From Arcobacter sp. (GTDB taxonomy: Bacteria > Campylobacterota > Campylobacteria > Campylobacterales > Arcobacteraceae): DNA of 64,000 nucleotides. Position 1 is the first letter of the stretch. Each line of letters begins with the position of its first letter. Both the position numbers and the translations under genes were made by a program. Location: NCBI GenBank assembly GCA_002869565.1, contig PKUJ01000011.1, positions 124,001 to 188,000 of the forward strand, given 5' to 3'. Below the pieces are notes generated by a model. The model did no database searches, was not told the origin of the DNA, and saw only the letters and a list, made by a program, of their open reading frames with translations. Shown in pieces: positions 47,040 through 64,000 of the stretch.

Positions 47040-50000
47040 TTAATGGGATAAATCACATTCAGCCATTTTCCCTTTGTTCTTTAAAGCTAAAATATAAAAT
47101 ATTGCAGGTATCACAATCAAGGTTAAAAACGCAGAGGATATCATTCCTCCAATCATTGGTGCGGCAATTCTCTGCATTACTTCACTCCCTACTCCATCTA
47201 TATACATAATAGGAATCAATCCTCCAAGTATCGCAAAAAGAGTCATTAGTTTTGGTCTTAGTCTTAATACTGCACCTTTATATATTGCATGAAAGATATG
47301 ATTTTTTTCTGGCTCTAAACATTTGTTTTTTAATTCAAGCATGGCTTCATGTAAGTAAACTAACATAACTATTGAGGTTTCAGCTGCAACACCAAGTAGC
47401 GCTAAAAATCCAACTATAACTGCTATAGAAATATTAAAATTCAAAAAGTCAAGATAAAATATTCCACCTGTTAATGCAAAAGGAAGAGTGAAAAATATAA
47501 TCATTGTGTAGGTTAAATTTCTAAGTGCAAAATATATTAAGATAAAGATAATAACAAAGGTTAAAGGGATGATATAAATAAGTCTTTGAATAGCTGATTC
47601 TAAATATTCACTTTGCCCTGCCCACTCATAATAAAAGCCTGTAGGGATTTTTATATCTTTTAAAAGTTCTTTAGCTTCATCTTTATATTGTTTTGCAGAG
47701 ATTCCATTTTTTGGCGTTATATAGATAAAGTTTACATTTAAAGCTTTCTCAGATTTTATTACAGAAGGTCCCTCTTCATATTTTAAATCTGCAAACATTT
47801 CAAGAGTTTGAAATCCAAGTTTTGTTTTTATTTGAAGATTTCTTAGAGTTGTTATATCTTCCCTTTGTGTAGTTTCAAATCTTAAACTTATAGGGTATCT
47901 TTCAAGTCCATCTAAAAGTGTTGATATTTTAGCTCCGGCCACACCTAATGATATTGTTGATAAAATATCATTTTTTGTGATTCCATATCTTGCTAACATC
48001 TCTTCTTTTACATGAATATTTAAATAGTACCCAGAGTTAATTTTATCTGTTGAAACGGATAATGTCTTATCAAATTTTTTTAATTTTTTTTCAATAAGTC
48101 CTGCTGTCTCTTCTAGTTTTTTGTGATTGTTTCCATAAAGTTTTATTCCTAAAGGAGTTCTTATTCCAGTAAGAAGCATATCAATTCTACCTCTAATTGG
48201 GTAAGTCCAAGAATTAATTAAACCAGCTACTTGAAGTTTTTGATCCATTTCTTCCATTAGTTTTTTATATGTCATACCTTCACGCCATTGGCTTTCTGGC
48301 TTGAAGCTAATAATAGTTTCTATCATTGCAAGAGGTGCTGGATCTGTAGCCGTATCTGCTCTTCCTGCTTTTCCAAATACAGTTTCTACTTCTGGAAATG
48401 ATTTTATAATCTTATTTGTTTTCTGAGTCAACTCTTTTGATAAATCAATTCCAATTCCATATGGAGTTACTGGCATATACATAAAAGTTTGTTCATTCAT
48501 CATAGGCATAAATTCCCAATTTTGTTTTTTATAAACAGGATATGCAAGAATTAAAGTACCTAGAAAAAGAACAACTATTAAATATCTAAATTTTAAAGAA
48601 ACTTTTAATAAAGGAGAGTATAAAGTAATAAAAAATCTATTCAATATATTTTTATCTTCTCTTAGAAGTTTTCCTTTAATAAAGAAGACCATTAAGATAG
48701 GTACAACAGTAATAGATAATATTGCCCCACTTATCATGGCAAATGATTTTGTAAATGCTACAGGAGTAAATAGCCTACCCTCTTGTCCTGTTAAAGCAAA
48801 GATTGGCAAAAATGAAACAACTACTAACATAAGTGCAAAAAAGATAGGACGCCCTACTTGCTTTGCAGATTTTATTATGATTTTAATTCGTTCTTCATTT
48901 GAAATATTTTCTTTACCTTGCAGATATTTATGTGCATTTTCAACCATTACAATAGTTGCATCAACCATTGCTCCAATTGCAATAGCAATTCCTCCTAAGC
49001 TCATAATATTTGAACCCATGCCAAATACTTTCATCAAAAGAAAAGTTATTAAAACTGTAATTGGTAAAGTAATGATAATAATCAACGCACTTCTAAAATG
49101 AAATAAAAATAGACCAGAGATAATCATTACAATAATAGATTCTTCAACAAGAGTATGTTTTAGAGTATCAATTGCTTTATCAATTAATGAAGATCTATCA
49201 TATGTCTCAACAACTTCAACGCCATCTACTTTTAATGTTTTGATTTTTTCTTTTACAGCTTTTATTACTGCATATGGGTTTTCTCCATATCTTACAACTA
49301 CAATTCCTCCAACTGTGTCACCTTCTCCATTTAAGTCAACCATTCCTCTTCTATTTGTAGAAGTAATATTAACTGAAGCTATATCTTTTATTTTAAGTGG
49401 AATAGAATTATTTGTTTTGATTGTGATATTTTCTATATCTACAATATTTTTTAAATAACCCTTGGCTTGAATCATATGTTCAAAACCATTTTCTAAAATA
49501 ATTCGTCCACCCTTTTCATCATTATTTGAAGTTAGTGCTTTTTTAACTTCTTGAATACTCAAACCATATTGAACCAACTTATCTTGATTTAAAGTGATTT
49601 CATAGTTTTTAATAAATCCACCAATAGAAGCAATTTCACTTACTCCATCAACACCAAGTAAGGCATATTTATAATAGTAGTCTTGAAGAGTTCTTAATTC
49701 ATCAAGTGATTTAGTCTCAGATTTTAGAGCATATTCATAAGCCCATCCAACTCCAGTTGCATCTGGACCAATAGCTACATTTGCTCCTGTAGGAAAAGTT
49801 CCTTGTAGTTGAGAAAGCTGTTCTAAAATTCTATTTCTTGAATCATATAAGTCAGTTCCATCTTTAAATATTATATATATAAGTGCATTTTGAAATGAAC
49901 TCATTGCTCTTACTGTATCTATATTTGGTAAACTCATTAGATTTGAAATAAGTGGATATGATACTTGTTCTTCAATTGTCTTTGGGCTTTGCCCTGCCCA

Positions 50001-50156
50001 TTTAACTTGCACAATAACTTGTGGTGGAGATAAATCAGGAAGTGCATCAAGACTTGTATTTTTAACTGCCCAAAATGAAGCAACTGTTAGAATTATAATT
50101 GTAAAAAGAATAAGGAATTTATTTTTTACACTATATGAGATTATATTTTCTACCAT
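47040..50156 (-). CDS. cusA: CusA-type heavy-metal efflux RND pump
   Basis: A 1038-residue inner-membrane RND transporter of the HME class with 12 predicted spans and two large periplasmic domains. Motifs include TTSLDALPDLSPPQVIVQ-like N-terminus, GAMVDATIVMVENAH and LLGVAAETSIVMLVYLHEAM. A Met is present in RGRIDMLLTGIRTPLGIKLYG, the site of the CusA Cu(I)/Ag(I) ligand, supporting monovalent-metal export. It is the last gene of an operon with adaptor, outer-membrane channel and a YtkA-like protein. Confidence 0.93.
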   Translation of the reverse strand: MVENIISYSVKNKFLILFTIIILTVASFWAVKNTSLDALPDLSPPQVIVQVKWAGQSPKTIEEQVSYPLISNLMSLPNIDTVRAMSSFQNALIYIIFKDGTDLYDSRNRILEQLSQLQGTFPTGANVAIGPDATGVGWAYEYALKSETKSLDELRTLQDYYYKYALLGVDGVSEIASIGGFIKNYEITLNQDKLVQYGLSIQEVKKALTSNNDEKGGRIILENGFEHMIQAKGYLKNIVDIENITIKTNNSIPLKIKDIASVNITSTNRRGMVDLNGEGDTVGGIVVVRYGENPYAVIKAVKEKIKTLKVDGVEVVETYDRSSLIDKAIDTLKHTLVEESIIVMIISGLFLFHFRSALIIIITLPITVLITFLLMKVFGMGSNIMSLGGIAIAIGAMVDATIVMVENAHKYLQGKENISNEERIKIIIKSAKQVGRPIFFALMLVVVSFLPIFALTGQEGRLFTPVAFTKSFAMISGAILSITVVPILMVFFIKGKLLREDKNILNRFFITLYSPLLKVSLKFRYLIVVLFLGTLILAYPVYKKQNWEFMPMMNEQTFMYMPVTPYGIGIDLSKELTQKTNKIIKSFPEVETVFGKAGRADTATDPAPLAMIETIISFKPESQWREGMTYKKLMEEMDQKLQVAGLINSWTYPIRGRIDMLLTGIRTPLGIKLYGNNHKKLEETAGLIEKKLKKFDKTLSVSTDKINSGYYLNIHVKEEMLARYGITKNDILSTISLGVAGAKISTLLDGLERYPISLRFETTQREDITTLRNLQIKTKLGFQTLEMFADLKYEEGPSVIKSEKALNVNFIYITPKNGISAKQYKDEAKELLKDIKIPTGFYYEWAGQSEYLESAIQRLIYIIPLTFVIIFILIYFALRNLTYTMIIFFTLPFALTGGIFYLDFLNFNISIAVIVGFLALLGVAAETSIVMLVYLHEAMLELKNKCLEPEKNHIFHAIYKGAVLRLRPKLMTLFAILGGLIPIMYIDGVGSEVMQRIAAPMIGGMISSAFLTLIVIPAIFYILALKNKGKMAECDLSH

Positions 50157-50165
50157 AATAATTTC

Positions 50166-51167
50166 CTACCAGTCATCATCATCTGAACTATAAAGTCCAT
50201 TTGTAACTGCATCAGAATCAAGTAAGAATAAAGCGTTATTTATAACTTTTTGTCCCTCTTTTAATCCTTCTAAAACTTCGTACTTATTTGAACTTATTCT
50301 TTTAGCTTTTATTTCTATTGGTTCAAATTCTGTTTTTGAAAGATATTGAAAAACAAAATGTTTATCTCCTTTTGATAGAACAGCAGTTTTAGGTAAGGTT
50401 AACATCTCTTTTTCAATTGCTTTTAAATCTACCTTTGCAAACATATTTGCATAAAGCTTTAAATCTTTATTTGGAATAACAAATCTAACATCAACAGCTT
50501 TAGTCTTTAAATCAACAGTTGGATAAATCATATCAACTTTTGAAATAATTGCTTCTTTGATTCCATCAATATAAATTTTGGCTTTCATATCTTTTTTTAT
50601 AAATGATAAATCTTTTTGATAAACAGAAGCTATAAACCAAAGTTCATCTAAAGATGCAAGTTGTAATAAAAGTTTTCCTTTTTTAGCAAAACTTCCTTTG
50701 TTTATATTTTTTTGTAAAACTATAGAATTTGTTGGAGAATAGAAAGATATGTTTTTTATAGTTTTATTTGAGGATTTTATTTTTTTGATTAACGCTGAAT
50801 TTATATCTAAAGATTTTAATTTTTCAATATTGCTATTAACTAAAGAGTTATTAAATTTTTTTGCGATTTGAATTTCTTGTTGAATTGAATTTACTTCATC
50901 AGAATAAATTGTAAAAAGTGGATTTCCTTTTTTTATAGTTTTATACTGTTCATTTGCATACAAATTTGTGATGTATCCATCAAATCTAGTCACAATATCA
51001 TAGATTTTTGTCTCATTTAAGGCAGTACGTCCATAAAAGCTTTTTAAGGTACCTATTTGCTCTTTTTGTACTTTTATGAGCTTTTTATTGAACAACTGTG
51101 AGACTTCAAGAATTTGGGCATTTAGTATTGTATAGCCCAGTATTAGGGCACTTAAAAATAGTTTCAT
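50166..51167 (-). CDS. cusB: RND efflux periplasmic adaptor (CusB-like)
   Basis: A 333-residue membrane-fusion protein with signal peptide (LFLSALILGYTILNA). A barrel-sandwich segment is visible (RFDGYITNLYANEQYKTIKK and NIKGSFAKKGKLLLQLASLDELWFIA-like strands) around a short helical hairpin. It bridges the inner pump and outer channel. It lacks the long N-terminal metal-binding extension of E. coli CusB. Start overlaps the channel gene's stop by 1 bp; 9 bp separate it from cusA. Confidence 0.9.
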   Translation of the reverse strand: MKLFLSALILGYTILNAQILEVSQLFNKKLIKVQKEQIGTLKSFYGRTALNETKIYDIVTRFDGYITNLYANEQYKTIKKGNPLFTIYSDEVNSIQQEIQIAKKFNNSLVNSNIEKLKSLDINSALIKKIKSSNKTIKNISFYSPTNSIVLQKNINKGSFAKKGKLLLQLASLDELWFIASVYQKDLSFIKKDMKAKIYIDGIKEAIISKVDMIYPTVDLKTKAVDVRFVIPNKDLKLYANMFAKVDLKAIEKEMLTLPKTAVLSKGDKHFVFQYLSKTEFEPIEIKAKRISSNKYEVLEGLKEGQKVINNALFLLDSDAVTNGLYSSDDDDW

Positions 51168-52381
51168 TAGATTTCCTTAGTAAAATAGCTAGATTTAGCT
51201 AAAGCGTTGAAATAGTTCTCTTTTTCATCAACTGCTTTTAGTCTATATTTTATAATTTCATTTAAATTTTTTATTAGAGTACTTGAGTCAATATTTTTAT
51301 AAGAACTAAAACTGTTATAGTTTTCTAAAACTTTTTGAAGCTCTAATTGTTTTGGAATAATATTTTTATTAATAATATTAAAAGTTATTTGTGCGTCATC
51401 TATATTTTGTTGATAAATTTTGACTTGGTTTTTAAATGTTAATTTTGTATCTTCAATCTTATTGTTTATTTCCATTGCTTTAAATTTTGCTTTTCTTGAT
51501 TTAATATCTTCACTTCCATAAATAGATAAAGGAATTGCAAAAGCAAGATTTACATAATTTTCATATTTTGAATCCCTATCAAAATATGTAAGTGACATTT
51601 TAATATCTGAATTTTTTCTCTCTTTCTCAAGTGTGGAGATGTTTTCAAATTTATTAGAGCTTTGTATTAGTTCTAAAATCTTTGGATGTGATTCTATGTT
51701 TGGTGATAGTTTAATATCTTTTATATTAGTTTCAAAATCAATATTCTCTATTTTTGAATAAGTTATTTGTTCAAGTTTTAAGTTTAGTGTATTTATCATT
51801 GTTTGTAATCTTTGTGATTTAAGATTAAGTTCTTCATATAGAATTTGCGAATTTAATATTTGTATTTGTGAAGCTTTATTATATTTATAAAGTTTAGTAA
51901 GAAGCTTTTTTAAGTTATTTGTATTTTGTTTAAACTCTTCAAAAAGAGAAAATCTCTCTTCAAGTAGTTTTATATTGTAAATGTATTCATATATTTTTGA
52001 TTGAAGTTGAAGTTTTTTATCTTCAAGTAAAAGTTTTGATATTTCATAATCATCACTTGCAATCTTTTTCTCAATTTCTAATTTATTTCCAAGAGGAATA
52101 GTTTGCGAAAAACCAATAAATTGAGCCTGCATAGGTTCTAAATCTCTTTTAGTAATATCATCAAATTGAATATCAGTAGCTCCAAAAGTAAGAGTAGGAT
52201 TCTTCCATTTTGATGCTAAATCAATCTGCTGTCTTGCTATGTCGATAGAATTTTCTAAAGCTTTTAAAGTATAGTTTTTATTGATAGTATTATTGACAAC
52301 TTCATCAATACTTTGTGCATTTGATATGGAAAAAGATGAGCATAATATGATAGATGTTAAAATAAGAGATTTAGTAAACAT
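51167..52381 (-). CDS. TolC-family outer-membrane channel
   Basis: A 404-residue outer-membrane efflux protein: signal peptide (SLILTSIILCSSFSISNA), then long amphipathic helices in two repeats typical of the OEP family (for example QQIDLASKWKNPTLTFGA and the coiled region around ENYNSFSSYKN). It provides the exit duct for the CusBA-like pump. It overlaps the YtkA-like gene by 1 bp. Confidence 0.9.
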   Translation of the reverse strand: MFTKSLILTSIILCSSFSISNAQSIDEVVNNTINKNYTLKALENSIDIARQQIDLASKWKNPTLTFGATDIQFDDITKRDLEPMQAQFIGFSQTIPLGNKLEIEKKIASDDYEISKLLLEDKKLQLQSKIYEYIYNIKLLEERFSLFEEFKQNTNNLKKLLTKLYKYNKASQIQILNSQILYEELNLKSQRLQTMINTLNLKLEQITYSKIENIDFETNIKDIKLSPNIESHPKILELIQSSNKFENISTLEKERKNSDIKMSLTYFDRDSKYENYVNLAFAIPLSIYGSEDIKSRKAKFKAMEINNKIEDTKLTFKNQVKIYQQNIDDAQITFNIINKNIIPKQLELQKVLENYNSFSSYKNIDSSTLIKNLNEIIKYRLKAVDEKENYFNALAKSSYFTKEI

Positions 52382-52791
52382 TATAAATTCACGCTTGATC
52401 TAACTTTATGTACTTTTCCATCTGCTGTTTTAAACATAAGATGATATTGCCATGTTCCACCCATTGGAAAATTAATCATAAATTTAAATTTACCATCAAC
52501 AAGTTTAGCTTTTTCAAGAGATTCCATATATGGCATACCTGGCATTTCTGGCATAAAAAACTTTGCTTTTACTTTTGCATCATTTACAAGTGCACCATCT
52601 TTTTTTAGAATAACATAAAAGTTATTCTCTCCAACAACAAGTGAATTTTCAGATACAAGTTCTATTGTATAGCCATCTTTCTCACCTTCTTGAGATATTG
52701 GTTCTGCATATACTAGACCAAATGTTAAAGCAAAGATTGAAATTATTTTAAATAATTTACCCATAAATGGGATTTCACAGTGTTTCATCAT
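52381..52791 (-). CDS. YtkA/FixH-like secreted protein of the pump operon
   Basis: A 136-residue protein with a signal peptide (FKIISIFALTFGLVYA) and one beta-sandwich domain of the YtkA/FixH-like type: KDGYTIELVSENSLVVGENNF at the start and PMGGTWQYHLMFKTADGK near the end. A Met-rich patch (FFMPEMPGMPYMES) could bind Cu(I). It leads the cusCBA-like operon. The start at 52791 is supported by AAGGAG 5 nt upstream, even though a later Met would give a more compact signal peptide. Confidence 0.8.
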   Translation of the reverse strand: MMKHCEIPFMGKLFKIISIFALTFGLVYAEPISQEGEKDGYTIELVSENSLVVGENNFYVILKKDGALVNDAKVKAKFFMPEMPGMPYMESLEKAKLVDGKFKFMINFPMGGTWQYHLMFKTADGKVHKVRSSVNL

Positions 52792-52879: not shown

Positions 52880-54040
52880 TTAAAAATCAAAACTAAAAGT
52901 AGTGCCCTCTTTTAGTTTTGATTGAACATCAAATTTTATATTGTATTCAAAGCAGATATTTTGAACAATATTAAGCCCAATCCCAAAGCCACCTTGTTCT
53001 TCTGTAGCTCTATAATATCTTTTGAAAATATCATCTATCTTTTTATTTGCGATGCCAATACCTTTATCTTTTATGATAAGTTTTCTATTTCTTAATTCAA
53101 TAGATATTGAGCCTTTTGGTTTGTTATATTTAATTGCATTTGAGACGATATTATTAAAAAGTCTTATAAAAGCATTTTCATCAATTTTAAAATAAAAATC
53201 TTCAAGATTTGTCTCTATTATGATTCGTTTTTTTTCTGCAAGTGCTTCAAAATATCTGAGTTGTTCTAAGCTTAGTTCTTTAAGATTACACTCTTTTACT
53301 TGGACTTTGTCTTCCCTATCTTCTAAAAAAATATAAGTTAAGTCTTTGTATATTTCAGAAACTCTTTGTGCTGCAAGTTGTATTCTTTGTATCTGTTTAT
53401 CTGTTAGATTTTTTGATTCAGAAGACATTAATATTGCACTTATTGGAGTATTTAATTCGTGAGTTGTATCTTTTATAAAATTGTTTAGTTTTTCTCTTTC
53501 TTCTTTAATTGGTCTTAAAAATAGTTTTGCCAAAAAGAATCCTATTAAAGAGACTATCCCATAGATAATTAAGAATAGTACAATAATATCAACTTGAAGT
53601 TTTTGTACGGTTTTGCTAAAAAGATTCTCTTCAATTGCAATATAATTTATACCAAGGTGTCCATATGTTGAATTATCAACTAAGATAAAATGCTCTTTGT
53701 ATTGAATAACATGTTTTTCAAAATCAATTTTATCATTCAAATTCCCTGCTATTTTATTTTTATTTTCGTCATAAAATGAAATTTTATATATATCAGTTTT
53801 TAAAAACTGATTAAGATTAAGATTTTTTCCTCTCATATGTGAGGAGATGATTTGAGAAGAGATACTTGATACTACATTTTGCATTTTTGTTTTTGCTAAA
53901 TCAAAATATAGCCTTTTTTCATTTTGGTAATATAATAGAGCAATAAGAGTCATTAGAATGAGCGAGCCTCCAAGATATAGACTAAAAAATCTAATAAATG
54001 TTCTTTTTTCACTTCTTGTTAAAGTAATAGTTGTCTCCAA
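52880..54040 (-). CDS. Sensor histidine kinase of the metal island (HK1)
   Basis: A kinase of about 386 residues: first transmembrane helix (SLILMTLIALLYYQ), a short periplasmic loop of about 110 residues, a second helix (IIVLFLIIYGIVSLIGFFLA), HisKA motif FIKDTTHELNTPISAI and HATPase motifs (NNIVSNAIKYNK, DKGIGI, GGFGIGLNI). It is a close paralogue of the kinase at 59.0-60.2 kb. The usual start codon is uncertain: TTG 54040 overlaps the only good ribosome site, whereas ATT 54028 lies 6 nt after GGAG. It is divergent from the SHOCT gene and RR1, its likely partner. Confidence 0.9.
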   Translation of the reverse strand: METTITLTRSEKRTFIRFFSLYLGGSLILMTLIALLYYQNEKRLYFDLAKTKMQNVVSSISSQIISSHMRGKNLNLNQFLKTDIYKISFYDENKNKIAGNLNDKIDFEKHVIQYKEHFILVDNSTYGHLGINYIAIEENLFSKTVQKLQVDIIVLFLIIYGIVSLIGFFLAKLFLRPIKEEREKLNNFIKDTTHELNTPISAILMSSESKNLTDKQIQRIQLAAQRVSEIYKDLTYIFLEDREDKVQVKECNLKELSLEQLRYFEALAEKKRIIIETNLEDFYFKIDENAFIRLFNNIVSNAIKYNKPKGSISIELRNRKLIIKDKGIGIANKKIDDIFKRYYRATEEQGGFGIGLNIVQNICFEYNIKFDVQSKLKEGTTFSFDF

Positions 54041-54173: not shown

Positions 54174-54383
54174 ATGTTTGATTATATGAACATGAATATG
54201 ACAATGTTTCATGGATTTGGCATGTTAATATTTTGGATTATTATATTCTTTTTAATATTTAATATATTTTTAAAAGATAAAAAAATAAGTATGGAAAAGC
54301 CTCTTGATATCTTAAAGAAAAGATTAGCAAAAGGTGAAATAACAAAAGAAGAGTATGAGAATTTAAAAGAATCAATTTTATAA
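54174..54383 (+). CDS. Small SHOCT-domain membrane protein
   Basis: A 69-residue protein: a Met-rich N-terminus (MFDYMNMNMTMFHGFGM), one hydrophobic helix (IFWIIIFFLIFNIFL), then a C-terminal SHOCT motif (PLDILKKRLAKGEITKEEYE). Met and His residues facing the periplasm could bind copper, but this is a guess. It is preceded by the metal-regulon box and followed 39 bp later by RR1. Confidence 0.85.
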   Translation: MFDYMNMNMTMFHGFGMLIFWIIIFFLIFNIFLKDKKISMEKPLDILKKRLAKGEITKEEYENLKESIL

Positions 54384-54422: not shown

Positions 54423-55082
54423 ATGAAAATATTATTACTAGAAGATGATCCTATATTAAATGAGATTATTGAAGAATTTCTTCTTTCCATAAATCATAAT
54501 GTAGTTCCAATTTATAATGGACAAGAAGCCTTAGAAAGAATTTATGAAGAATCATTTCAACTCTTGTTATTAGACGTAAATGTTCCATCCTTAAATGGAT
54601 TTGATCTCTTGAAATCATTAAAACAAAATAAAATTGATATACCGACTATTTTTATTACTTCTTTGCATACTCCAAGAGATTTAGAAGAAGGTTTTCGTGT
54701 GGGTGCGGATGATTATATAAAAAAACCTTTCCAATTAAGTGAATTAAATTTAAGAATTAACAATATTAGTAGACTAAGAAAAATAGATAATTTAGGATTT
54801 GTTCGAATAAATGATTTCATTACATATAATTATGATACAAAATTATTAGTTGTTAATGAAGCTGATTTTACTTTATCAAAAATAGAATCAAAGGTTTTAG
54901 AATTTTTAATCAAAAACAGAAATAGAACACTTTCTATCGAAGAAATATCTTTAAATAATTGGGTCTATGATGAAATGCCAACAGCAACTACAATTAGAAC
55001 ATATATAAAAAATTTACGAAAAATATTAGGAAAAGATATGATTACAAATATAAAAGGTATTGGTTATAAATTAAGGGATTAA
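54423..55082 (+). CDS. OmpR-family response regulator (RR1)
   Basis: A 219-residue regulator with receiver Asp in LLLLDVNVPSLNGFDLL (about residue 51), conserved Lys in IKKPF, and a winged-helix DNA-binding domain (SIEEISLNNW; TATTIRTYIKNLRKILGK). It is nearly the same as RR2 at 58.4 kb through most of the chain. It lies divergent from HK1 and is the most likely reader of the 11-bp-repeat boxes found close by. Confidence 0.92.
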   Translation: MKILLLEDDPILNEIIEEFLLSINHNVVPIYNGQEALERIYEESFQLLLLDVNVPSLNGFDLLKSLKQNKIDIPTIFITSLHTPRDLEEGFRVGADDYIKKPFQLSELNLRINNISRLRKIDNLGFVRINDFITYNYDTKLLVVNEADFTLSKIESKVLEFLIKNRNRTLSIEEISLNNWVYDEMPTATTIRTYIKNLRKILGKDMITNIKGIGYKLRD

Positions 55083-55196: not shown

Positions 55197-55421
55197 TTAT
55201 GATTCTGTGCTTGAGGGATACAATTTATCCAAAATATTTTCAGATGCCCCACCTAGTTCTTTTTTCATTACATCATGTTTCATCAAGTCATTACAATGCT
55301 GAATTTGTTTTTCTGACATATTATTCATATTTTTAATTCCATCCATTTGATGATCTCCTGCTGCATATAATGTCCCTGCTAATAAACTAGCTCCTATAAT
55401 TGTAGTTACAATTTTTTTCAT
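55197..55421 (-). CDS. Small Met/His-rich periplasmic peptide
   Basis: A 74-residue protein with a Sec signal peptide (KKIVTTIIGASLLAGTLYAA). The mature part, about 54 residues, is rich in Met and His with one Cys (GDHQMDGIKNMNNMSE, HCNDLMKHDVMKKE), the composition of soluble Cu(I)/Ag(I) binders. I know no named family. It has the strongest metal-regulon promoter in the window, with four tandem half-sites and a TATAAT box (55447-55442) 17 bp further on. Confidence 0.75.
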   Translation of the reverse strand: MKKIVTTIIGASLLAGTLYAAGDHQMDGIKNMNNMSEKQIQHCNDLMKHDVMKKELGGASENILDKLYPSSTES

Positions 55422-55506: not shown

Positions 55507-57651
55507 TTACAGTTTCTTCATTTTTAATCTAAGAGAATTAACTACAACTGTTACTGAGCTAAAACTCATAGCAATTCCTGCATACATAGGGGATAACATT
55601 ATTCCAAAGAATGGATATAAAATTCCTGCAGCAATTGGTATTCCTAAAGTATTATATCCAAAAGCCCAAAAAAGATTTTGTTTTACTATCTTCATAGTCT
55701 CTATAGATAAATTAATACTTTTTATTACAGAATTTAATTCATTGTTAATAAGTACAATATCTCCCGCATCTTTACTTATATCAGCTCCTGAATTTAAGGT
55801 AATACCAATATCCGCTTGTTTAATAGATGGTGCGTCATTTACTCCATCTCCAATGAACATAACTTTTGCTTCTTTTTGCAGTCTTTTAATTACTTCATAT
55901 TTCTCAGTTGGGATTACTTGGGCATAAACTTCATTTATATTGAGTTTTTTAGCAATTTTAGAAGCTGTTATTTCATTATCTCCTGTTAGAAGAACTGCTT
56001 TGATTCCAATGTTTTTTAGGTTTTTTATGACTTCTATCGCCTCTTCTTTTAGTTCATCTTCTAAAGAGAATGAACCAATTGTCTCTTTATCAATTGCTAC
56101 TAATATCACACCATTAGAAAGTTCAAGTTCTTTTTCATAAAAATTTAAATGTTTTTCTAAAATTGAAACTTGATTATCTTCTAGAAGTTTTTTATTGCCT
56201 AATAAGTATTCTATATTATCAATAGAGACTTTTATTCCATGTCCTGGGATAATTTCTATATTTTCTATTTTTTCATCACAACTTATATTTTTATTTTCTA
56301 TAAATTTGACAATTGCTTTAGAGATAGGATGTTCACTATATTTTTCAATAGAAGCAATTCTTTTAAAATATTCTTCTTTTATATCTGTTTTTGTTACAGA
56401 AATATTCCCTTTAGTTAGTGTTCCTGTTTTATCAAATACAGCATATTTTATCTCTTTTATTTGTTCTAAGATTTCAGGATTTTTAATTAAAATTCCTTCT
56501 TTCGCCCCACGACTAACAGAACTTACTATTGCAATAGGCGTTGCTAGTCCTAATGCACAAGGACAAGAGATGATAAGAACACTGATACTTGCAATAATTG
56601 CATTTTGTAAATCACCAATAAAAAATCCCCACACTATAAAAGTAAGAATTGATATGATAATTACTGTAGGTACAAAAATATTGGCAATTTTATCTGCAAA
56701 CCTACTAATAGGTATTTGTTTACTTTGTGCAGATTTTAAAAGAGTTATGATTTTTGATAAAGTTGTATCTTTTGATTCTTTTGTAACTTTAAGTGTTATA
56801 ACACCATTTGTATTTAATGTTCCAGCAAGGACTTCATCTCCTTCTTGTTTAAAAACTGGAAGTGATTCTCCTGTTATCATTGACGTATTGATATCTGCAT
56901 TTCCTTCTATAATTAGACCGTCAACAGGTATTTTTTCACCTATTTTAACTAAAACACTATCACCTAATTTTAAATCTTTAACTAAAACAGTTTTTATTTG
57001 CTTGTTTTCATCCATTACATTTGCATTTTCAGGTGCTAAACTCATAAGTTTTTTTAAAAAATCACTTGCTTTTTGTTTTGAATTTTCTTCTAAAAATCTT
57101 CCTAGGATTATAAAACTGATAATAACAGCGGCTCCATCAAAATAGATAAATCTTAAATGTTCAGGGAATAAAGAAGGAAAAAAAACAACAAAAGTTGAAT
57201 AAAAATAAGCAGCACTAGTTCCAATAGCTACTAAAACATTCATATCATAGTTTTTATTTGCTACTGCTTTATATGCAAGTTTGTAAAATCTTGCTCCACA
57301 ATAAAATTGTATTATAGAAGCTAAAACAAATATAATATAAGTATTTAAAGTTTTTTCAAAAATATTAGAAAAGGCTAAAATAAAAATTGCGATAGTAATA
57401 GATATTGAAGTAATAAAAAGTTTTTTTAATTCTTTGAAACTTTTTAATTGCTCTTCTTCAAGTGCTTTTGTATCTTCTTCAACCTTGTAGCCAAGTTTTT
57501 CGATTTGTGAAATTAACTTTTCTCTTGAGAAAAGTTTTGAATCAATTTGAAATTCACCCTCACTAGAAGCAAAACTTACCTTAGTTTTTAGTACGCCTTT
57601 TTGTCTATTTAAAAACTTTTCAATACCATTGGAACAGTTAACACAAGTCAT
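55507..57651 (-). CDS. copA: CopA-type Cu(+) P1B-type ATPase (start region broken)
   Basis: A 714-residue P-type ATPase: an N-terminal HMA domain with GMTCVNCSNG, eight membrane segments, the CPC metal site in SISVLIISCPCALGLATP, the phosphorylation motif DKTGTLTKG, HP-loop motif SEHPISKAIV and GDGVNDAPSIKQADIG. CPC with late Asn and Ser-rich helices fits Cu(I) export. The natural ATG is at 57684, 33 nt upstream, but codon 3 there is TAA, so this shorter frame from ATG 57651 (preceded by no clear ribosome site) would be all that can be made. Confidence 0.88.
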   Translation of the reverse strand: MTCVNCSNGIEKFLNRQKGVLKTKVSFASSEGEFQIDSKLFSREKLISQIEKLGYKVEEDTKALEEEQLKSFKELKKLFITSISITIAIFILAFSNIFEKTLNTYIIFVLASIIQFYCGARFYKLAYKAVANKNYDMNVLVAIGTSAAYFYSTFVVFFPSLFPEHLRFIYFDGAAVIISFIILGRFLEENSKQKASDFLKKLMSLAPENANVMDENKQIKTVLVKDLKLGDSVLVKIGEKIPVDGLIIEGNADINTSMITGESLPVFKQEGDEVLAGTLNTNGVITLKVTKESKDTTLSKIITLLKSAQSKQIPISRFADKIANIFVPTVIIISILTFIVWGFFIGDLQNAIIASISVLIISCPCALGLATPIAIVSSVSRGAKEGILIKNPEILEQIKEIKYAVFDKTGTLTKGNISVTKTDIKEEYFKRIASIEKYSEHPISKAIVKFIENKNISCDEKIENIEIIPGHGIKVSIDNIEYLLGNKKLLEDNQVSILEKHLNFYEKELELSNGVILVAIDKETIGSFSLEDELKEEAIEVIKNLKNIGIKAVLLTGDNEITASKIAKKLNINEVYAQVIPTEKYEVIKRLQKEAKVMFIGDGVNDAPSIKQADIGITLNSGADISKDAGDIVLINNELNSVIKSINLSIETMKIVKQNLFWAFGYNTLGIPIAAGILYPFFGIMLSPMYAGIAMSFSSVTVVVNSLRLKMKKL

Positions 57652-57684
57652 CCCCGATATATTGAGATTTATTTTTTATGTCAT
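57652..57684 (-). other. 5' remnant of copA with nonsense codon at position 3
   Basis: ATG at 57684-57682 follows AAAGGAG at ideal spacing and lies 2 bp after the arsR-type stop. The frame reads Met-Thr-stop-Lys-Ile-Asn-Leu-Asn-Ile-Ser-Gly and runs directly into GMTCVNC, the correct first strand of an HMA domain. A single change (for example GAA to TAA at 57678-57676) explains it. Confidence 0.85.
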
Positions 57685-57686
57685 TT

Positions 57687-58043
57687 TTACTCCTTTTTTT
57701 CATTGAGTAAGACATTTAACAATTCTTTTATATACACATCTTTTATATAGTAAAAAGACATTTTTTTATCTTTTTTAAAATCTACAATTCCATATTTTCT
57801 TAAAACTTTTAGTTGATGAGATACATGTGATTGAGGTAGTTCTAAAACATTTACCATTTCTCCCACACAAATTTCATAATCCAATAGTGCATATAGAATT
57901 TTTACTCTAGTTGAATCACTTAATGCTTTAAATACATTAGATATTTCTAAGAGTTTATTTTCATTTGGTAAATTATCTTGTATATCATTAAGATAACTTA
58001 CCCCCTCACAACAAGAACGAATTAGTTTTTTTGACTTTTTCAT
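57687..58043 (-). CDS. ArsR/SmtB-family metal-responsive repressor
   Basis: A 118-residue winged-helix repressor: FKALSDSTRVKILYALL, then helix alpha-3 with EICVGEM and the recognition helix LPQSHVSHQLKVLRKYG. Candidate metal ligands are the Cys pair near the N-terminus (RSCCEG) and Cys in EICVGEM, as in CadC/ArsR-type sensors. It sits between copZ and copA (2-bp gaps on both sides), so it probably represses this operon through the CATATG repeats upstream of copZ. Confidence 0.9.
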   Translation of the reverse strand: MKKSKKLIRSCCEGVSYLNDIQDNLPNENKLLEISNVFKALSDSTRVKILYALLDYEICVGEMVNVLELPQSHVSHQLKVLRKYGIVDFKKDKKMSFYYIKDVYIKELLNVLLNEKKE

Positions 58044-58045
58044 TA

Positions 58046-58249
58046 CTATTTTATAATCTCAAATCCAAGTTCTGCCATCTCTTTTTTAAACTCATTCTCT
58101 TGTTCATCATCTTTTATTTCAACAATAACTTCTTTTGGAGTTGTTTCTAAGTTTACTTCAATCTTACCAAAACTATCTTCTAATGAAACTTTTATTAAAT
58201 TTGCACAACTTCCGCAGGCTATATTATTTGCTTTAAATGTTTTTTTCAT
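58046..58249 (-). CDS. copZ: Small HMA-domain copper chaperone (CopZ-like)
   Basis: A 67-residue HMA domain with the metal site IACGSCANLIK (Cys-Gly-Ser-Cys), a variant of the usual MxCxxC, and the beta-alpha-beta pattern of CopZ. It would deliver Cu(I) to CopA. It is first in the copZ-arsR-copA operon; the promoter and operator lie immediately upstream. Confidence 0.85.
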   Translation of the reverse strand: MKKTFKANNIACGSCANLIKVSLEDSFGKIEVNLETTPKEVIVEIKDDEQENEFKKEMAELGFEIIK

Positions 58250-58375: not shown

Positions 58376-59035
58376 ATGAAAATATTACTATTAGAAGATG
58401 ATACTTTATTAAATGAAATCATTGAAGAATTTTTAGAAGAACTTGATTATGATGTGGTTTCAACCTATGATGGACAAGAGGCCTTAGAAGCTATATATGA
58501 GGATGCCTTTGATTTATTACTTCTTGATGTAAATGTACCTTCTTTGAATGGTTTTGATTTGTTAGAAGGATTAAAAAAGAATAGTATCGATATTCCTACT
58601 ATATTTATAACTTCTCTTCATAGTTCTAATGATATGGAAAAAGGTTTTAATTCAGGAGCGGATGATTATATTAAAAAACCTTTTCATTTAAGTGAATTGG
58701 AATTAAGAATAAACAATATAAAAAGACTTAGGCAAATTGAGAGTTCAGGGCTTGTAAAATTGAGTGATGAGGTTTCATATAATCATGACACAAAATATAT
58801 TACAGTAGAGAATATTGAGACTCATTTATCCAAAACAGAAGCAAAAGTTTTTGAGTATTTTATAAAAAATAGAAATAAATCAATCTCTATAGAAGAAATA
58901 TCCTTAAACAACTGGATTTATGATGAGGTTCCAACTGCAACCACTATTAGAACCTATATAAAAAACTTACGAAAAATATTAGGTAAAGATAGAATTACAA
59001 CAATTAAATCAATTGGATATAAACTAAACCTTTAG
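58376..59035 (+). CDS. OmpR-family response regulator (RR2)
   Basis: A 219-residue regulator with phospho-acceptor Asp in LLLLDVNVPSLNGFDLL, Lys in IKKPF and a winged-helix domain nearly identical to that of RR1 (SIEEISLNNWIYDE, TATTIRTYIKNLRKILGKD). It is divergent from copZ and overlaps the 3' end of HK2 by 4 bp tail to tail. It is a recent duplicate of RR1 and probably recognises similar sites. Confidence 0.91.
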   Translation: MKILLLEDDTLLNEIIEEFLEELDYDVVSTYDGQEALEAIYEDAFDLLLLDVNVPSLNGFDLLEGLKKNSIDIPTIFITSLHSSNDMEKGFNSGADDYIKKPFHLSELELRINNIKRLRQIESSGLVKLSDEVSYNHDTKYITVENIETHLSKTEAKVFEYFIKNRNKSISIEEISLNNWIYDEVPTATTIRTYIKNLRKILGKDRITTIKSIGYKLNL

Positions 59036-60189
59036 AATGTTATAGTAAAAGTAGTACCTTCATTTTCAACTGATTGAACATTAATTTTTATATTATAAGT
59101 TTGGCAGATGTGATAAGCGATATTAAGCCCTATTCCAAAACCACCTTGATCTTTTGTAGCTCTATAGTATCTGTTGAAAATATCATTTAATAGTTCTTTT
59201 TTAATACCAATTCCTGTGTCTTTTATAATAAGTGTTCTATTTTTTAATTCTAAATGAATCTCTCCACCTATTTTATTATATTTGATTGCATTTGATATTA
59301 TGTTATTAAAAAGTCTTATAAAATTTTCTTTATCTATTTCAAATTTGGTCTCTTCAATATCAGAGGAAATAGTTAGTTTTTTCTTTAACGCAAAGGCTTC
59401 AAAATATTCCAATTGTTCTTCAATGATTTTATCTAATTGCAAAATCATTGGTGCTGGTTCTTTTTTATTCTCTTGTAAAAATAGATAAACTAAGTCTTTA
59501 TAAATTTCAGAAATTCTTTTTGCACTTAGATTAATTCTTTGCATATTCTTTTGGGTTAAAGCTGAATCTTTTCCTGTACTCATAAGAATTGCTGTAATTG
59601 GAGTATTCAATTCATGAGTAGTATCTTTTATAAAGTTATTGAGTTTTCTTCTTTCATTTATTATGGGTGCTAAAAATAAATCAGCAAGGTAATATCCTAT
59701 GATAGCAATGATTGAATAGATAACTACAAAATAGAAAATAATCTTTTCTATAAGTGTAGTGATTTTATCTTGGAATATATTTTCTCTAATAGCAATATGA
59801 TAAACACCTAAATGGCCTCTTGGTGTTCCATCAACGAGAATAAAACTATCATCAACTTTTTGTATTTTTTTTGTTAAATCAATACTTTCATTTATATTTC
59901 CAGCAACTTTTACATGATTTTTATTATATAAAGCATAATCATATTTTATGTAACTTGCTAATTTTGTGGTATTAATTGTAAGGTCTGACATATGGGCATA
60001 GATAATACTAGAGGAGATTTTCGATGCAACATTTTTCATATTTGAAGTTAATAAATCATACTGTAATTTAGATTCTATTTTATAAAAAAGCCAAAAAATG
60101 ACTAATAAGAGTATTAATGATGAGCCTAAAAAAAGCCCTAAGAATCTAAAAAAAGTTCTTTTTTCACTTCCTGTTAAATCTATAACCAA
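59032..60189 (-). CDS. Sensor histidine kinase of the metal island (HK2)
   Basis: A kinase of about 385 residues, paralogous to HK1: two transmembrane helices (LILLLVIFWLFYKI; IIFYFVVIYSIIAIIGYYLA) flanking a small periplasmic sensor, HisKA FIKDTTHELNTPITAIL, and HATPase (NNIISNAIKYNK, DTGIGI, GGFGIGLNI). It is co-transcribed with RR3, overlapping it by about 26 bp. Its TTG start (60189) abuts GGAG with no spacer, while ATA 60183 lies 6 nt after it, the same layout as HK1. Confidence 0.9.
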   Translation of the reverse strand: MVIDLTGSEKRTFFRFLGLFLGSSLILLLVIFWLFYKIESKLQYDLLTSNMKNVASKISSSIIYAHMSDLTINTTKLASYIKYDYALYNKNHVKVAGNINESIDLTKKIQKVDDSFILVDGTPRGHLGVYHIAIRENIFQDKITTLIEKIIFYFVVIYSIIAIIGYYLADLFLAPIINERRKLNNFIKDTTHELNTPITAILMSTGKDSALTQKNMQRINLSAKRISEIYKDLVYLFLQENKKEPAPMILQLDKIIEEQLEYFEAFALKKKLTISSDIEETKFEIDKENFIRLFNNIISNAIKYNKIGGEIHLELKNRTLIIKDTGIGIKKELLNDIFNRYYRATKDQGGFGIGLNIAYHICQTYNIKINVQSVENEGTTFTITF

Positions 60190-60823
60190 CTCCTTTAATA
60201 GTCTCTATATACTCTTCTCCGATGATTTTTCTAATATTTTTTATGTATGTTCGTATAGTTGAAGAAGTTGGGGCTCCTTCATAAGACCAAATATTTGAGG
60301 AAAGTTCATCTTGGGAAATACATCTATTTTTATTATTTAAAAGATACTTTAAAATTTGCGCTTCTTTTAGCGGAAGTTTTGTTTTAATAGAGTCAAAATC
60401 TATATAATTTAGCTTTGCATTAAATTTGATATGTTCATCTATGATTAGTTCATCTTCTTCTAAATGAAGAAGTCTTTTTATATTGTTTATTCTAAGTTCT
60501 AACTCTTTTAACTCAAAAGGTTTTTTTAGATAATCATCTGCTCCAGCTTTAAAGCCTTCTTCTATATCTTCAACAGAATTTAAAGAAGTGATAAAAATTG
60601 CAGGTGTTGTAATATTGTTATCACGTAAATTTTTTAAAAATTCAAAACCAGTGATATTTGGGACATTTACATCTAGGATCATTAAGTCGAAGTGTTCATC
60701 ATATATAACTTCACTAGCTTTCATTCCATCGAATACACAGACAACCTCATAGTCTAAAGATTGTAAGAATTCTTCTATTATTTCATTTAGTATTAAATCG
60801 TCTTCAAGGAGTAATATTTTCAT
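60164..60823 (-). CDS. OmpR-family response regulator (RR3), partner of HK2
   Basis: A 219-residue regulator: receiver Asp in LMILDVNVPNITGFEFL, Lys in LKKPF, winged helix (SQDELSSNIWSYEG; STIRTYIKNIRKIIGEE). It is more diverged from RR1 and RR2 than they are from each other. ATG 60823 is chosen because all paralogues start MKILLLEDD there. It is divergent from hvfA, whose promoter holds a weaker version of the 11-bp box. Confidence 0.91.
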   Translation of the reverse strand: MKILLLEDDLILNEIIEEFLQSLDYEVVCVFDGMKASEVIYDEHFDLMILDVNVPNITGFEFLKNLRDNNITTPAIFITSLNSVEDIEEGFKAGADDYLKKPFELKELELRINNIKRLLHLEEDELIIDEHIKFNAKLNYIDFDSIKTKLPLKEAQILKYLLNNKNRCISQDELSSNIWSYEGAPTSSTIRTYIKNIRKIIGEEYIETIKGVGYRFNRK

Positions 60824-60857: not shown

Positions 60858-60875
60858 CCCCACACTTGCTACACA
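60858..60875 (+). promoter_or_regulatory. Degenerate metal-regulon box in the RR3/hvfA promoter
   Basis: CCCCACA (60858-60864) and CTACACA (60869-60875) are 11 bp apart and share the CCACACTT core of the other boxes, though the second half-site is weak. It lies in the 113-bp divergent gap, about 60 bp before the hvfA start, and could be the RR3 site. Confidence 0.4.
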
Positions 60876-60936
60876 ATGACTTAACATTAAATTATTAAAA
60901 TTTCGATATTCTTACAAAAAATAAAAGGAAAAGACA

Positions 60937-61254
60937 ATGAAAAATACAAAAATTAAATTAGCAGGAATTCTTTTAGGAGCTGCATTAGCAAGTACAGGAG
61001 CATATGCAGGAAGTGGTTCATGTGGAGCTGGTAAATGTGGTGGTGACATGAAAAAAGTAGAAAAGAAAGCTGATGGTTCATGTGGTGCTGGTAAATGTGG
61101 TTCTGATATGAAAAAAATGAAAAAAGCAGATGGTTCATGTGGAGCTGGTAAATGTGGTGGCGATATGAAGAAAAAAGATAAAATGAAAAAAGCAGATGGT
61201 TCATGTGGAGCTGGTAAATGTGGTGGCGACATGAAGAAAAAAGATTCTAAATAA
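60937..61254 (+). CDS. hvfA: HvfA-like RiPP metallophore precursor with four SCGAGKCG repeats
   Basis: A 105-residue secreted precursor. A Sec signal peptide (LAGILLGAALASTGAYA) is followed by four copies of a unit whose core is SCGAGKCGGDMKK, separated by Lys-rich spacers; eight cysteines in all. Precursors of the HvfA/bufferin class carry repeated GKCG motifs whose cysteines are converted by a DUF692 enzyme into oxazolone/thioamide or thiooxazole groups that bind copper. The next two genes encode just those enzymes. AAAAGGA precedes the ATG. The exact modification here is inferred. Confidence 0.88.
   Translation: MKNTKIKLAGILLGAALASTGAYAGSGSCGAGKCGGDMKKVEKKADGSCGAGKCGSDMKKMKKADGSCGAGKCGGDMKKKDKMKKADGSCGAGKCGGDMKKKDSK
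61014..61245 (+). repeat. Tandem core-peptide repeats inside hvfA
   Basis: Four near-identical DNA units of about 40 bp begin with GGTTCATGTGGAGCTGGTAA or a one-base variant, near 61014, 61074, 61131 and 61197. The third and fourth are almost identical, pointing to recent unit duplication. The spacers differ in length by whole codons. Confidence 0.85.
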
Positions 61255-61272
61255 AAAGTTTGAAAGAGATTT

Positions 61273-62094
61273 ATGATAAACGTTAAGGGTTGTGGTTTAG
61301 GTTTAAGAAGTGATTTTTTATTAGATGTAAAGGAGAGTAATTTTCAACCAGATTGGTGGGAAGTTACTCCTGAAAATTGGATGTTTATGCCAAAAATCTA
61401 TGAAAAAGCCTTTGAAGAGGCAGTCTTTTCAAAACCAACAGTAGCCCATGGTTTATCATTATCTATCGGATCTGCTGACAAACTTAATAGAAAGTTTGTC
61501 AAACAGATAAAAACATTTTTAGATAGATACAATATCGAATATTATTCTGAGCATCTCTCTTTCTCCTCTTTAGATAATAAACAGTCTTACGAACTTTTAC
61601 CAGTTCCTATGACAAAAAAGATGGTAAATATTATCAGTGATAGAGTTAAAGAAGTTGAGGATATTATTCAAAGAAATCTTATTTTAGAAAATGCAACTTA
61701 TTATTATGTACCCTATTCTGAGATGGCTGAGGTTGATTTTATAAATGAAGTGTTAGAAAAATCAGGTGCAAAGATGCTTTTAGATGTAAATAATGTATTT
61801 GTAAATTCTGTAAATCACTCTTTTAAAGCTAGAAAATTTATTGATGAAATTGATAAAAGTAAAGTTGCTTACATGCATATGGCAGGACACTATTTTGATG
61901 AAGAAGCAAAAATGAAAATTGATTCTCATGGTATGCCAATATGTTCTGGTGTATGGAAACTTTTAGAGTATACTTTAAAACAATTAAATGCTCCGGTTAT
62001 GATAGAAAGAGATAATAATATCCCTCCTTTGGATGTTTTAGCTGCCGAGTACAAACAGATGAAAAAGATTGTTAAAAGAGTTCAAAATGCTTAG
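61273..62094 (+). CDS. hvfB: DUF692 multinuclear non-haem iron oxidative enzyme (HvfB/BufB-like)
   Basis: A 273-residue TIM-barrel enzyme of the MNIO family (formerly UPF0276). All family landmarks are present: GCGLGLR, WWEVTPENWM, VAHGLSLSIGS, SEHLSF, LENATYY, LLDVNNVFVNSVNH, MHMAGHY, DSHG and MIERDNNIPPLDVL. The His, Asp and Glu residues in these motifs bind two or three irons. It oxidises cysteines in the adjacent precursor with O2. It starts 18 bp after hvfA. Confidence 0.93.
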   Translation: MINVKGCGLGLRSDFLLDVKESNFQPDWWEVTPENWMFMPKIYEKAFEEAVFSKPTVAHGLSLSIGSADKLNRKFVKQIKTFLDRYNIEYYSEHLSFSSLDNKQSYELLPVPMTKKMVNIISDRVKEVEDIIQRNLILENATYYYVPYSEMAEVDFINEVLEKSGAKMLLDVNNVFVNSVNHSFKARKFIDEIDKSKVAYMHMAGHYFDEEAKMKIDSHGMPICSGVWKLLEYTLKQLNAPVMIERDNNIPPLDVLAAEYKQMKKIVKRVQNA

Positions 62095-62779
62095 TAAAAC
62101 AGAAGAAAAAAGCATTGAAAAAAGATTTTTAGATAATCTTATAAATCAAGATGAAAAAGTTGAAAATAGTGCTATAAAAGTATATCAAAGACTTGTATTA
62201 AGTAGGTTTTTGGATGTTCTTGAAAATAGTTTCCCTCTTTTAAAAAAACAAATATCTGAAAATAGTTTTGAAAAATCTGTTATAAAATTTATGAAAGATA
62301 CGCCCTCCACTCCTTTTGTCTGGCAGATTCCAAATGACTATAGAAAGTTTGTAAAAAGGAATAAGATTTTTAAGAATAAAAAATATTTGTATGAACTTCT
62401 ATACTATGATTGGATAGAAATTGAAATTTACATGAAAGAGTATAAGTTCAAAAAACAAAAAAAGTTTTCATATAAAGAGATTTATACTTTATCTAAAAGT
62501 GCAAGAATCAAGAACTTTAAGTATGATATTATAAATAGTGATTATAAAAACAAAAGAGAAAACTTTTTAGTGATTTATTATGATTTTATTACAGATGAAG
62601 TTGTATTTAGAGAAATCAATCAGCTTATTTATGTACTTTTAGGAAATTTGAACAAGAAAGAATCTCTAGGTGAAGTTTTAAAAAATTTGTGCCATGAAAA
62701 TGAGATAAATTTCAAAGAAGCAAAAGCTCTTTTGAGAGAACCTTTGGAAGAACTATTTTCAAATAAAGTTTTTATTTAA
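62087..62779 (+). CDS. hvfC: DUF2063-type partner protein (HvfC/BufC-like)
   Basis: A 230-residue protein whose N-terminal region (YQRLVLSRFLDVLENSFPLLKK) is the DUF2063/putative DNA-binding domain of MNIO partner proteins; such proteins bind the precursor and bring it to the enzyme. The C-terminal half has a winged-helix-like region. It overlaps hvfB by 8 bp (ATG 62087) and converges on hemD with another 8-bp overlap. No DoxX-like fourth gene (HvfD) follows. Confidence 0.85.
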   Translation: MLSKTEEKSIEKRFLDNLINQDEKVENSAIKVYQRLVLSRFLDVLENSFPLLKKQISENSFEKSVIKFMKDTPSTPFVWQIPNDYRKFVKRNKIFKNKKYLYELLYYDWIEIEIYMKEYKFKKQKKFSYKEIYTLSKSARIKNFKYDIINSDYKNKRENFLVIYYDFITDEVVFREINQLIYVLLGNLNKKESLGEVLKNLCHENEINFKEAKALLREPLEELFSNKVFI

Positions 62780-63674
62780 TTTCTATTGCTTTTCTAACAC
62801 AAGATTCTAAAGAAGTAGTATTTGCAATCTTATAAGAGACATAACTTGGAAAATATTTTGCAGTTGTTTTTCCTATTGAAATTACTTTAAAACTTTTTTG
62901 CCAAATAATGTTTTTGAAAAAACACTCTATGGTTGAAGGTGAAGAGAATATAATTGTTGAATCTTTAGGTAACTCAATCTTTTCTTTGAAGTTTTTATAA
63001 ACAGTTTTATAAACAACTTTTTCATCACATTTTACTTCATTGTCATTTAATATTTTTGTAAAATTAGAAACAATTTTTTCTGCTTTTAAATATAAAACTC
63101 TTTTGTTTTTTAATTGATTTATTAGTTCGTATGCAAACTCATCTCCATGATGTGATTTACCCACAAATGCAAGTCTTCCTTTTAACTCTTTTACAACTTT
63201 TGCTGTTTGTGGAGCTATAACATACGCAGGGATATTCTTCCATTTGGAGTTAAATTTATTTAATGAATAAACGCCATTCTTTGATGTAAAAATTATAGCA
63301 TCGTAATCTGAAAAATCTATGTTTTGCGGTATAACTTCAATATCAAACAATGATAAATTTTTTGCCCATTTTACTTTTTTGTTTCCTAAAATATAAATAT
63401 TTGAATTTCTATTTTTAAAATTCTCAACTAAAGTATTAAAGTATTTACGAATAGTAGAAGATATAAAAGATGATGAAGCAGATAAAGAGATTGATTTGTC
63501 ATTATTTACATGAAATGTAATATTATGTTTACTTAACATAAAAGTTATTTTTATTAGTTCTTTATAGGAGTGTTCATTTGGAATTTCATCAAGAAGAAGA
63601 CTATTTTTTTGTTTGTCATATCTATAATAAATAAGATTTAATTTATTTAATAATTCCAAAATATCCATCTTCAT
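62772..63674 (-). CDS. hemD: Uroporphyrinogen-III synthase (HemD) with N-terminal extension
   Basis: A 300-residue protein. Residues about 95-300 show HemD features: DAIIFTSKNGVYSL, YVIAPQTAKVVKEL, GKSHHGDEFA, KRVLYLKAEKIVSNF, STIIFSSPSTIECF and KVISIGKTTAKYF. HemD cyclises hydroxymethylbilane in haem synthesis. The first 90 residues are an additional domain I do not recognise, and HemD normally has about 210-260 residues. GGAG lies 9 nt before the ATG. Confidence 0.82.
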   Translation of the reverse strand: MKMDILELLNKLNLIYYRYDKQKNSLLLDEIPNEHSYKELIKITFMLSKHNITFHVNNDKSISLSASSSFISSTIRKYFNTLVENFKNRNSNIYILGNKKVKWAKNLSLFDIEVIPQNIDFSDYDAIIFTSKNGVYSLNKFNSKWKNIPAYVIAPQTAKVVKELKGRLAFVGKSHHGDEFAYELINQLKNKRVLYLKAEKIVSNFTKILNDNEVKCDEKVVYKTVYKNFKEKIELPKDSTIIFSSPSTIECFFKNIIWQKSFKVISIGKTTAKYFPSYVSYKIANTTSLESCVRKAIEIK

Positions 63675-63737: not shown

Positions 63738-64000
63738 TGAAGCTAATTTTATCAGATAGTAGTTTGATATAATATTTGAGGAGTTATCAAAAGCTTTTGA
63801 CTGTTTTAATCTACTCTCAAATCCCCATTTGATATAATAACTATATGAAACTTTAAAGATTCCTGTGGGTTTTAATCTACTCTCAAATCCCCATTTGATA
63901 TAATTATACAGCTTTACTTGCAAGAACTGGATGGTTTTAATCTACTCTCAAATCCCCATTTGATATAATAAAAATCTTTTTCAAAATCAAAAGGAATACG
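63738..64000 (+). CRISPR. CRISPR array, start only (probably type II-C)
   Basis: Three identical 36-nt repeats at 63803-63838, 63869-63904 and 63934-63969 begin GTTTTAATCTACTC and end CATTTGATATAAT. Spacers are 29-30 nt (63839-63868, 63905-63933), and a third spacer is cut by the window edge. A degenerate repeat at 63738-63773 keeps only the last 11 bases (TTTGATATAAT) plus scattered matches, and is followed by a 29-nt spacer. 36-nt repeats starting GTTTTA and ending in a -10 box are typical of type II-C. No cas gene is visible in the window. Confidence 0.93.

Follow-up and report, generated by a model that had tools for sequence, protein, structure and literature searches.

An HvfABC-like operon beside copper efflux genes and a divergent two-component pair in Arcobacter sp.

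The window examined in this study (the whole stretch of 64,000 nucleotides of marine Arcobacter sp. DNA) carries near its end three genes in line. They encode a predicted secreted precursor that has four SCGAGKCG units, an enzyme of the DUF692/MNIO family and a partner with a DUF2063 domain (Table 1), just as a first-pass annotation of the sequence had described. The trio is not a chance arrangement, since the A-B-C order is kept in dozens of related genomes. The overlapping gene order given at the same time holds for hvfB and hvfC, which share 8 bp, but not for hvfA and hvfB, which are 18 bp apart. Downstream, hemD (62772-63674) faces the operon. The genes were also said to lie in a copper island, and cusCBA, ytkA and copA are indeed found nearby; these copper neighbours comprise CusA, CusB, an outer-membrane efflux protein, YtkA, a CopA-type ATPase, an ArsR-type regulator and an HMA-like protein whose score is just under the Pfam cut-off. 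The divergence of the operon from a response regulator gene is likewise real, the arrangement is conserved, and a repeat element lies in the shared promoter, making this the most informative part of the earlier annotation. Between RR1 and copA there is also a gene on the minus strand (55197-55421) for a 74-aa small secreted protein (MKKIVTTIIGASLLAGTLYA...HCNDLMKHD), which matches the MXKDX repeat family only weakly.

Table 1. Features of the hvfABC locus and its surroundings, with positions counted from the first nucleotide of the window.
Feature	Position	Strand	Remarks
ytkA-cusC-cusB-cusA, copper/silver RND efflux	47040-52791	-	CusA is 47040-50156
Sister repeat element TTCCACACTTCTTCCTCATTAA	52828-52849	-	identical element, upstream of ytkA-cusCBA
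HK1, sensor kinase	52880-54040	-	
Sister repeat element TTCCACACTTTTTCCTCATTAA	54113-54134	+	upstream of SHOCT-RR1
RR1, third OmpR-type regulator	54423-55082	+	behind a SHOCT-domain gene (54174-54383)
HMA-like small protein, ArsR-type regulator, CopA-type P1B ATPase	55507-58249	-	CopA 55507-57651; HMA-like 58046-58249
RR2, second OmpR-type regulator	58376-59035	+	resembles RR1/RR3 in sequence
HK2, sensor kinase	59032-60189	-	overlaps RR3
RR3, OmpR-type response regulator	60164-60820	-	divergent from hvfA
Triple direct repeat CCCCACA-N4-CTACACA-N4-CTTAACA	60858-60886	+	period 11, RR3/hvfA intergenic; proposed response-regulator operator
hvfA-type precursor	60937-61254	+	105 aa; putative Sec-type signal followed by four SCGAGKCG units; NF050137 53.3 bits
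hvfB-type MNIO (DUF692) maturase	61273-62094	+	273 aa; PF05114, 3BWW, NF003818
hvfC-type partner (DUF2063 + NGO1945_C)	62087-62779	+	230 aa from ATG at 62087; predicted leader-binding RRE protein

The precursor opens with MKNTKIK, a hydrophobic stretch and AYA followed by G, an n-h-c pattern judged by eye and hydropathy, which leaves a predicted mature part of 81 aa. The calculated average masses of the unmodified, reduced peptide are 10,321.1 Da at full length and 7,962.3 Da for the mature form. The four exact units start at residues 28, 48, 67 and 89 and contain all eight Cys of the protein, and their DNA differs by one silent change. The comparison with HvfA and BufA families that had been suggested at first pass placed the precursor in NF050137 (KCGExKCG_twice, the HvfA family), with four matching stretches and a score well over the cut-off of 19.5 bits; in this genome the family was matched at the hvfA locus only. 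The precursor scored below the cut-off of the HvfA equivalog NF050188 (37.8 bits against 95) and gave no Pfam match to the DUF2282 (Buf1) domain. The literal EGKCG pentapeptide is absent, its place being taken by AGKCG in four of four units.

HvfB matched PF05114 at 293 bits, over the cut-off, and its nearest solved structure is 3BWW (E=1.3e-48), while its 313 bits against the equivalog NF003818 (PRK05409) fell below the cut-off of 360. In Haemophilus HvfB, loss of any one of N175, D242 or H244 abolishes activity; mapped through 3BWW with an offset of one, these residues would correspond to the conserved N173, D217 and H219 here. HvfC exceeded the cut-offs of both PF09836 and PF22106 and scored below that of the HvfC equivalog (85.8 bits against 142). 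A sequence search of the PDB returned no match for HvfC; its AlphaFold2 model (pLDDT 87.6) matched NGO1945 (3DEE; E=1.2e-7), then TglI of TglHI (E=4e-6), with weaker PqqD-like RREs behind, and as modelled the protein folds like NGO1945, with an RRE. As the HvfABC-like label had stated, the trio belongs to this family (NF050137, PF05114, NGO1945-like fold), and it is a distinct branch below the family level; all three proteins are under the Hvf equivalog cut-offs, so that the exact chemistry is not guaranteed. It is likely that hvfABC here represents an Arcobacteraceae branch of the HvfABC (oxazolin/Buf_EGKCG/captophorin) class of MNIO-made copper-binding peptides, and the product of the three-gene operon is very probably a secreted peptide of the oxazolin/HvfA family that carries chemical modifications and binds copper.

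Compared to HvfABC/oxazolin of Haemophilus influenzae (PMC13419390; Manley et al. 2024), the operon has the same A-B-C order, a putative Sec signal on the precursor, two-Cys GKCG-type repeats and an MNIO enzyme with a DUF2063 partner. It differs in having SCGAGKCG four times rather than AEGKCGEGKCG three times, in lacking a gene for HvfX (DoxX-like), in its divergent RR/HK pair and adjacent cus genes, and in falling below the three Hvf equivalog cut-offs. The Buf_EGKCG/oxazolins and captophorins (fontiphorin, gonophorin; PMC12452194, PMC12668002) share the class-defining precursor type with its paired GKCG motifs and a PME-type 1 partner (DUF2063, 3DEE fold); however, these sources describe mainly Pseudomonadota with EGKCG, whereas the present case is a Campylobacterota branch with Ser or Ala before the first Cys and Ala for Glu. 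The bulbicupramide cluster mmrABC of Microbulbifer (PMC12538549) is again a three-gene A-B-C cluster with EGKCG repeats and a Cu(I)-binding product, but its core motif and genomic setting differ and its expression is not copper-induced. Bufferins (BufABCD, with Buf1 DUF2282 and Buf2) resemble the operon in MNIO and DUF2063 proteins and in the Sec signal and copper buffering predicted for it, yet have an unrelated precursor and Cys pattern, and Buf1 is under a sigma factor/NrsF rather than a two-component pair. Several aspects that the first-pass annotation had listed as new are already found in this literature. Paired-Cys motifs are the rule, as in Haemophilus HvfA; repeat number varies widely across the Buf_EGKCG family (PMC12452194) and is three to five per precursor in the relatives examined here; and the missing DoxX-like gene, although truly absent from the operon (the genome has three DoxX matches, all on other contigs), is no novelty, as published clusters combine core genes in various ways (PMC12452194). 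Most of the claimed novelty is not new, and hvfABC is best seen as a sound addition to the family, not as a system of a new kind.

An MNIO gene was found in 37 of 104 genomes of the same family, and nearly all loci read among these had the A-B-C trio with a Cys-repeat precursor; carriers include Halarcobacter sp., Poseidonibacter lekithochrous, P. ostreae and Arcobacter MAGs. In the sample of the phylum, PF05114 was matched in 27 of 397 genomes, with 25 over the cut-off. One branch of the HvfB tree (support 100/100) splits Campylobacterota from Pseudomonadota, and the clade of the window's HvfB (28 rows) also has 100/100 support. Horizontal gain from Pseudomonadota was considered and is unsupported, the two groups lying on opposite sides of that branch. 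Four loci from the same family (L065, L066, L071 and L076) fall outside the window's clade. In one of these, L065 (genome G043), the precursor has SCGAGKCG units and HvfB is only 56% identical, a possible case of transfer or convergence. The literature search found no report of oxazolin/captophorin peptides in Arcobacteraceae or other Campylobacterota.

In most relatives sampled, cusCBA-ytkA and RR/HK genes adjoin hvfABC, in one of two settings: HK2-RR3 divergent from [yceI-]hvfABC (L117-L128, L131), or ytkA-cusC-cusB-cusA ahead of [yceI-]hvfABC and in the same direction (L129, L130, L132, L134, L135, L004, L006, L010-L012). Orthologues of RR3, 80-88% identical, stand beside [yceI-]hvfABC in most same-genus relatives. 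A YceI-family gene (PF04264) precedes hvfA in most relatives, between RR3 or cusA and hvfA across L117-L132, and is missing in the window, where 116 bp separate RR3 from hvfA; the operon-linked yceI is lost in this genome. Another yceI (contig 21, 221 kb) was rejected as a moved operon gene, because it shares about 51% identity with the hvf-linked form, as the relatives' second copies do, while hvf-linked forms are 70-82% identical to one another. Many other Campylobacterota have hvfA-hvfB-hvfC-doxX, often followed by RR-HK, and the absence of DoxX is therefore a feature of the Arcobacteraceae setting.

The three-unit box in the shared RR3/hvfA promoter has the 11-bp period that is typical of sites for OmpR-family regulators. 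Its CTACACA unit is invariant in the intergenic regions of 12 of 12 same-genus relatives, and the pattern without mismatch occurs once in the window's genome. With up to three mismatches a site was present in 15 of 16 same-genus genomes, compared to one match for the reversed pattern, and matches away from hvf also exceed this control. A profile of the box scored 45.0 at 60858-60886, a site belonging to the training set, and its maximum over three shuffled windows was 8.5. Of 196 chunks, the top three outside the training set were all upstream of hvfA (L141, 21.5; L148, 13.6; L144, 13.4), and sites between cusA and yceI or hvfA were seen in L129 (17.9) and L134 (10.5); several other relatives score low. 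In other families the RR-HK genes come after hvfABC-doxX, and box-like sites lie ahead of hvfA in some. A second pattern, YACAC-N5-YACAC, had no matches. Conservation of the box could partly reflect the two promoters themselves. In addition, one same-genus genome (G054) without an MNIO gene retains the box between RR3 and yceI, so that it may belong first to RR3/yceI.

The sister element TTCCACACTTNTTCCTCATTAA has two exact copies in the window and none in 100 shuffles, and is a candidate site of a sister response regulator. The simplest reading of these sequences would be a pair of sister two-component systems, with cus under one and hvf/yceI under the other, and RR3/HK2 is probably a two-component switch acting on hvfABC through the putative operator.

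By analogy with the published pathways, we infer modification of the Cys residues, copper binding, export and regulation. HvfA would be made with a Sec signal doubling as leader, bound in the cytoplasm by HvfC and handed to HvfB, an iron oxidase that would turn Cys of SCGAGKCG into 5-thiooxazoles (about -4 Da each, at four to eight sites). The modified peptide would then be exported and cleaved after AYA, and would serve as a periplasmic Cu(I) sink alongside CusCBA/YtkA and CopA, with the divergent RR3/HK2 pair switching transcription through the repeat. Formation of 5-thiooxazole at -4 Da per Cys and a signal peptide serving as leader are described for the Haemophilus system (PMC13419390), and Cu binding by homologues is reported in PMC12668002. 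In Microbulbifer, however, the homologous peptide was not detected whether or not copper was present, and in E. coli there was only weak protection (PMC12538549). The periplasmic copper buffer proposed at first pass is supported as likely.

There are several other potential explanations for what the operon makes and does. Its product may serve mainly against envelope stress in general (oxidation damage in the periplasm), with copper as only one inducer of a regulon that takes in degP and msrP, plus yceI in relatives. Box-like sites with two to three mismatches lie before degP in four genomes, the window's included, and others between tpx and msrP (both named by eye) in four further genomes; yceI stands between RR3 and hvfA in relatives, some published Buf_EGKCG clusters hold oxidored_molybd and ferric reductase genes (PMC12452194), and MsrPQ repair under copper stress in E. 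coli is reportedly tied to CusSR (PMC9302797). However, these off-operon sites are weak, the window genome's own msrP has a box score of only 1.8, and some other matches are inside coding genes such as fliM (this one, and one near an acyl-CoA synthetase-like gene, were discounted because they look coding). The synteny with copper genes points to a copper role, and envelope stress as the main function is considered unlikely. Copper acquisition by a chalkophore, rather than detoxification, would share MNIO chemistry and Cu(I) binding with methanobactin, but no uptake receptor or MbnT/MbnM-type gene was seen, the neighbours are exporters and their regulators, HvfB is far from the MbnB equivalog (44 bits against a cut-off of 325), and no MbnC match was reported, so that this function is very improbable. 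That the precursor is simply a secreted protein rich in Cys, and its supposed maturase unrelated or dead, is scarcely credible given the joint conservation of enzyme, partner and motif, in open frames, across dozens of genomes.

A further alternative accepts the same enzyme family and concerns the Cys residues that it oxidises. The SCGAGKCG unit is the usual paired unit in derived form (Lys to Ser before the first Cys, Glu to Ala), because Haemophilus HvfA carries three AEGKCGEGKCG motifs with all six Cys reported as modified sites (PMC13419390); the Glu-to-Ala form KCGAGKCG also occurs in Pseudomonadota relatives. The window's clade supplied 28 distinct precursors with 113 XCGxxXCG units. In these the first Cys follows Ser in 86, Ala in 23, Gly in three and Thr in one, and never Lys, while Lys before the second Cys was kept throughout. 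By comparison, 34 of 44 units from other Campylobacterota have Lys ahead of the first Cys, as do all 76 from Pseudomonadota, the latter sampled by one non-exhaustive, pattern-based search. It is possible, if on balance improbable, that oxidation is confined to the AGKCG Cys and leaves the SCG Cys as a thiol, so that each of four Cu(I) sites would mix thiol and thiooxazole; this would fit the one-sided loss of Lys. However, six of six Cys are reported as modified in HvfA, and in a related pathway FonBC still acts when Glu is replaced by Ala, or Lys by Ala, Arg or Thr, though not by Pro (PMC12668002; serine is not among the variants named for the Lys site in the text consulted). This tolerance makes both Cys of the unit plausible substrates by analogy.

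Judging from the comparisons above, the features specific to the window's clade are the lack of Lys before the first Cys, the synteny with cusCBA and RR/HK genes, and the repeat in the shared promoter. A broader proposal, offered tentatively and judged improbable, is that a Campylobacterota two-component regulon for periplasmic copper/oxidation damage, marked by the 11-bp-period CTACACA-type repeat, joins the MNIO copper peptide, YceI, DegP, MsrP and Cus, and that the clade's precursor units combine an unmodified SCG Cys with an AGKCG thiooxazole in a mixed-ligand copper site. These findings add to the known range of oxazolin/captophorin copper peptides a conserved branch found in Arcobacteraceae and in other Campylobacterota. 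RR3/HK2 with a defined repeat offers a candidate transcription switch for the class, and Ser or Ala before the first Cys is a natural substrate variant that probes which Cys an MNIO selects; the link to the regulator and the S/A-first unit both merit testing.

A CRISPR array lies at the end of the window (63738-64000) and continues into the extended locus (L152:2802-4165), which holds 21 repeats of GTTTTAATCTACTCTCAAATCCCCATTTGATATAAT. Next to the array, on the minus strand, come two genes named by eye, one Cas1-like (290 aa) and one Cas9-like (1170 aa).
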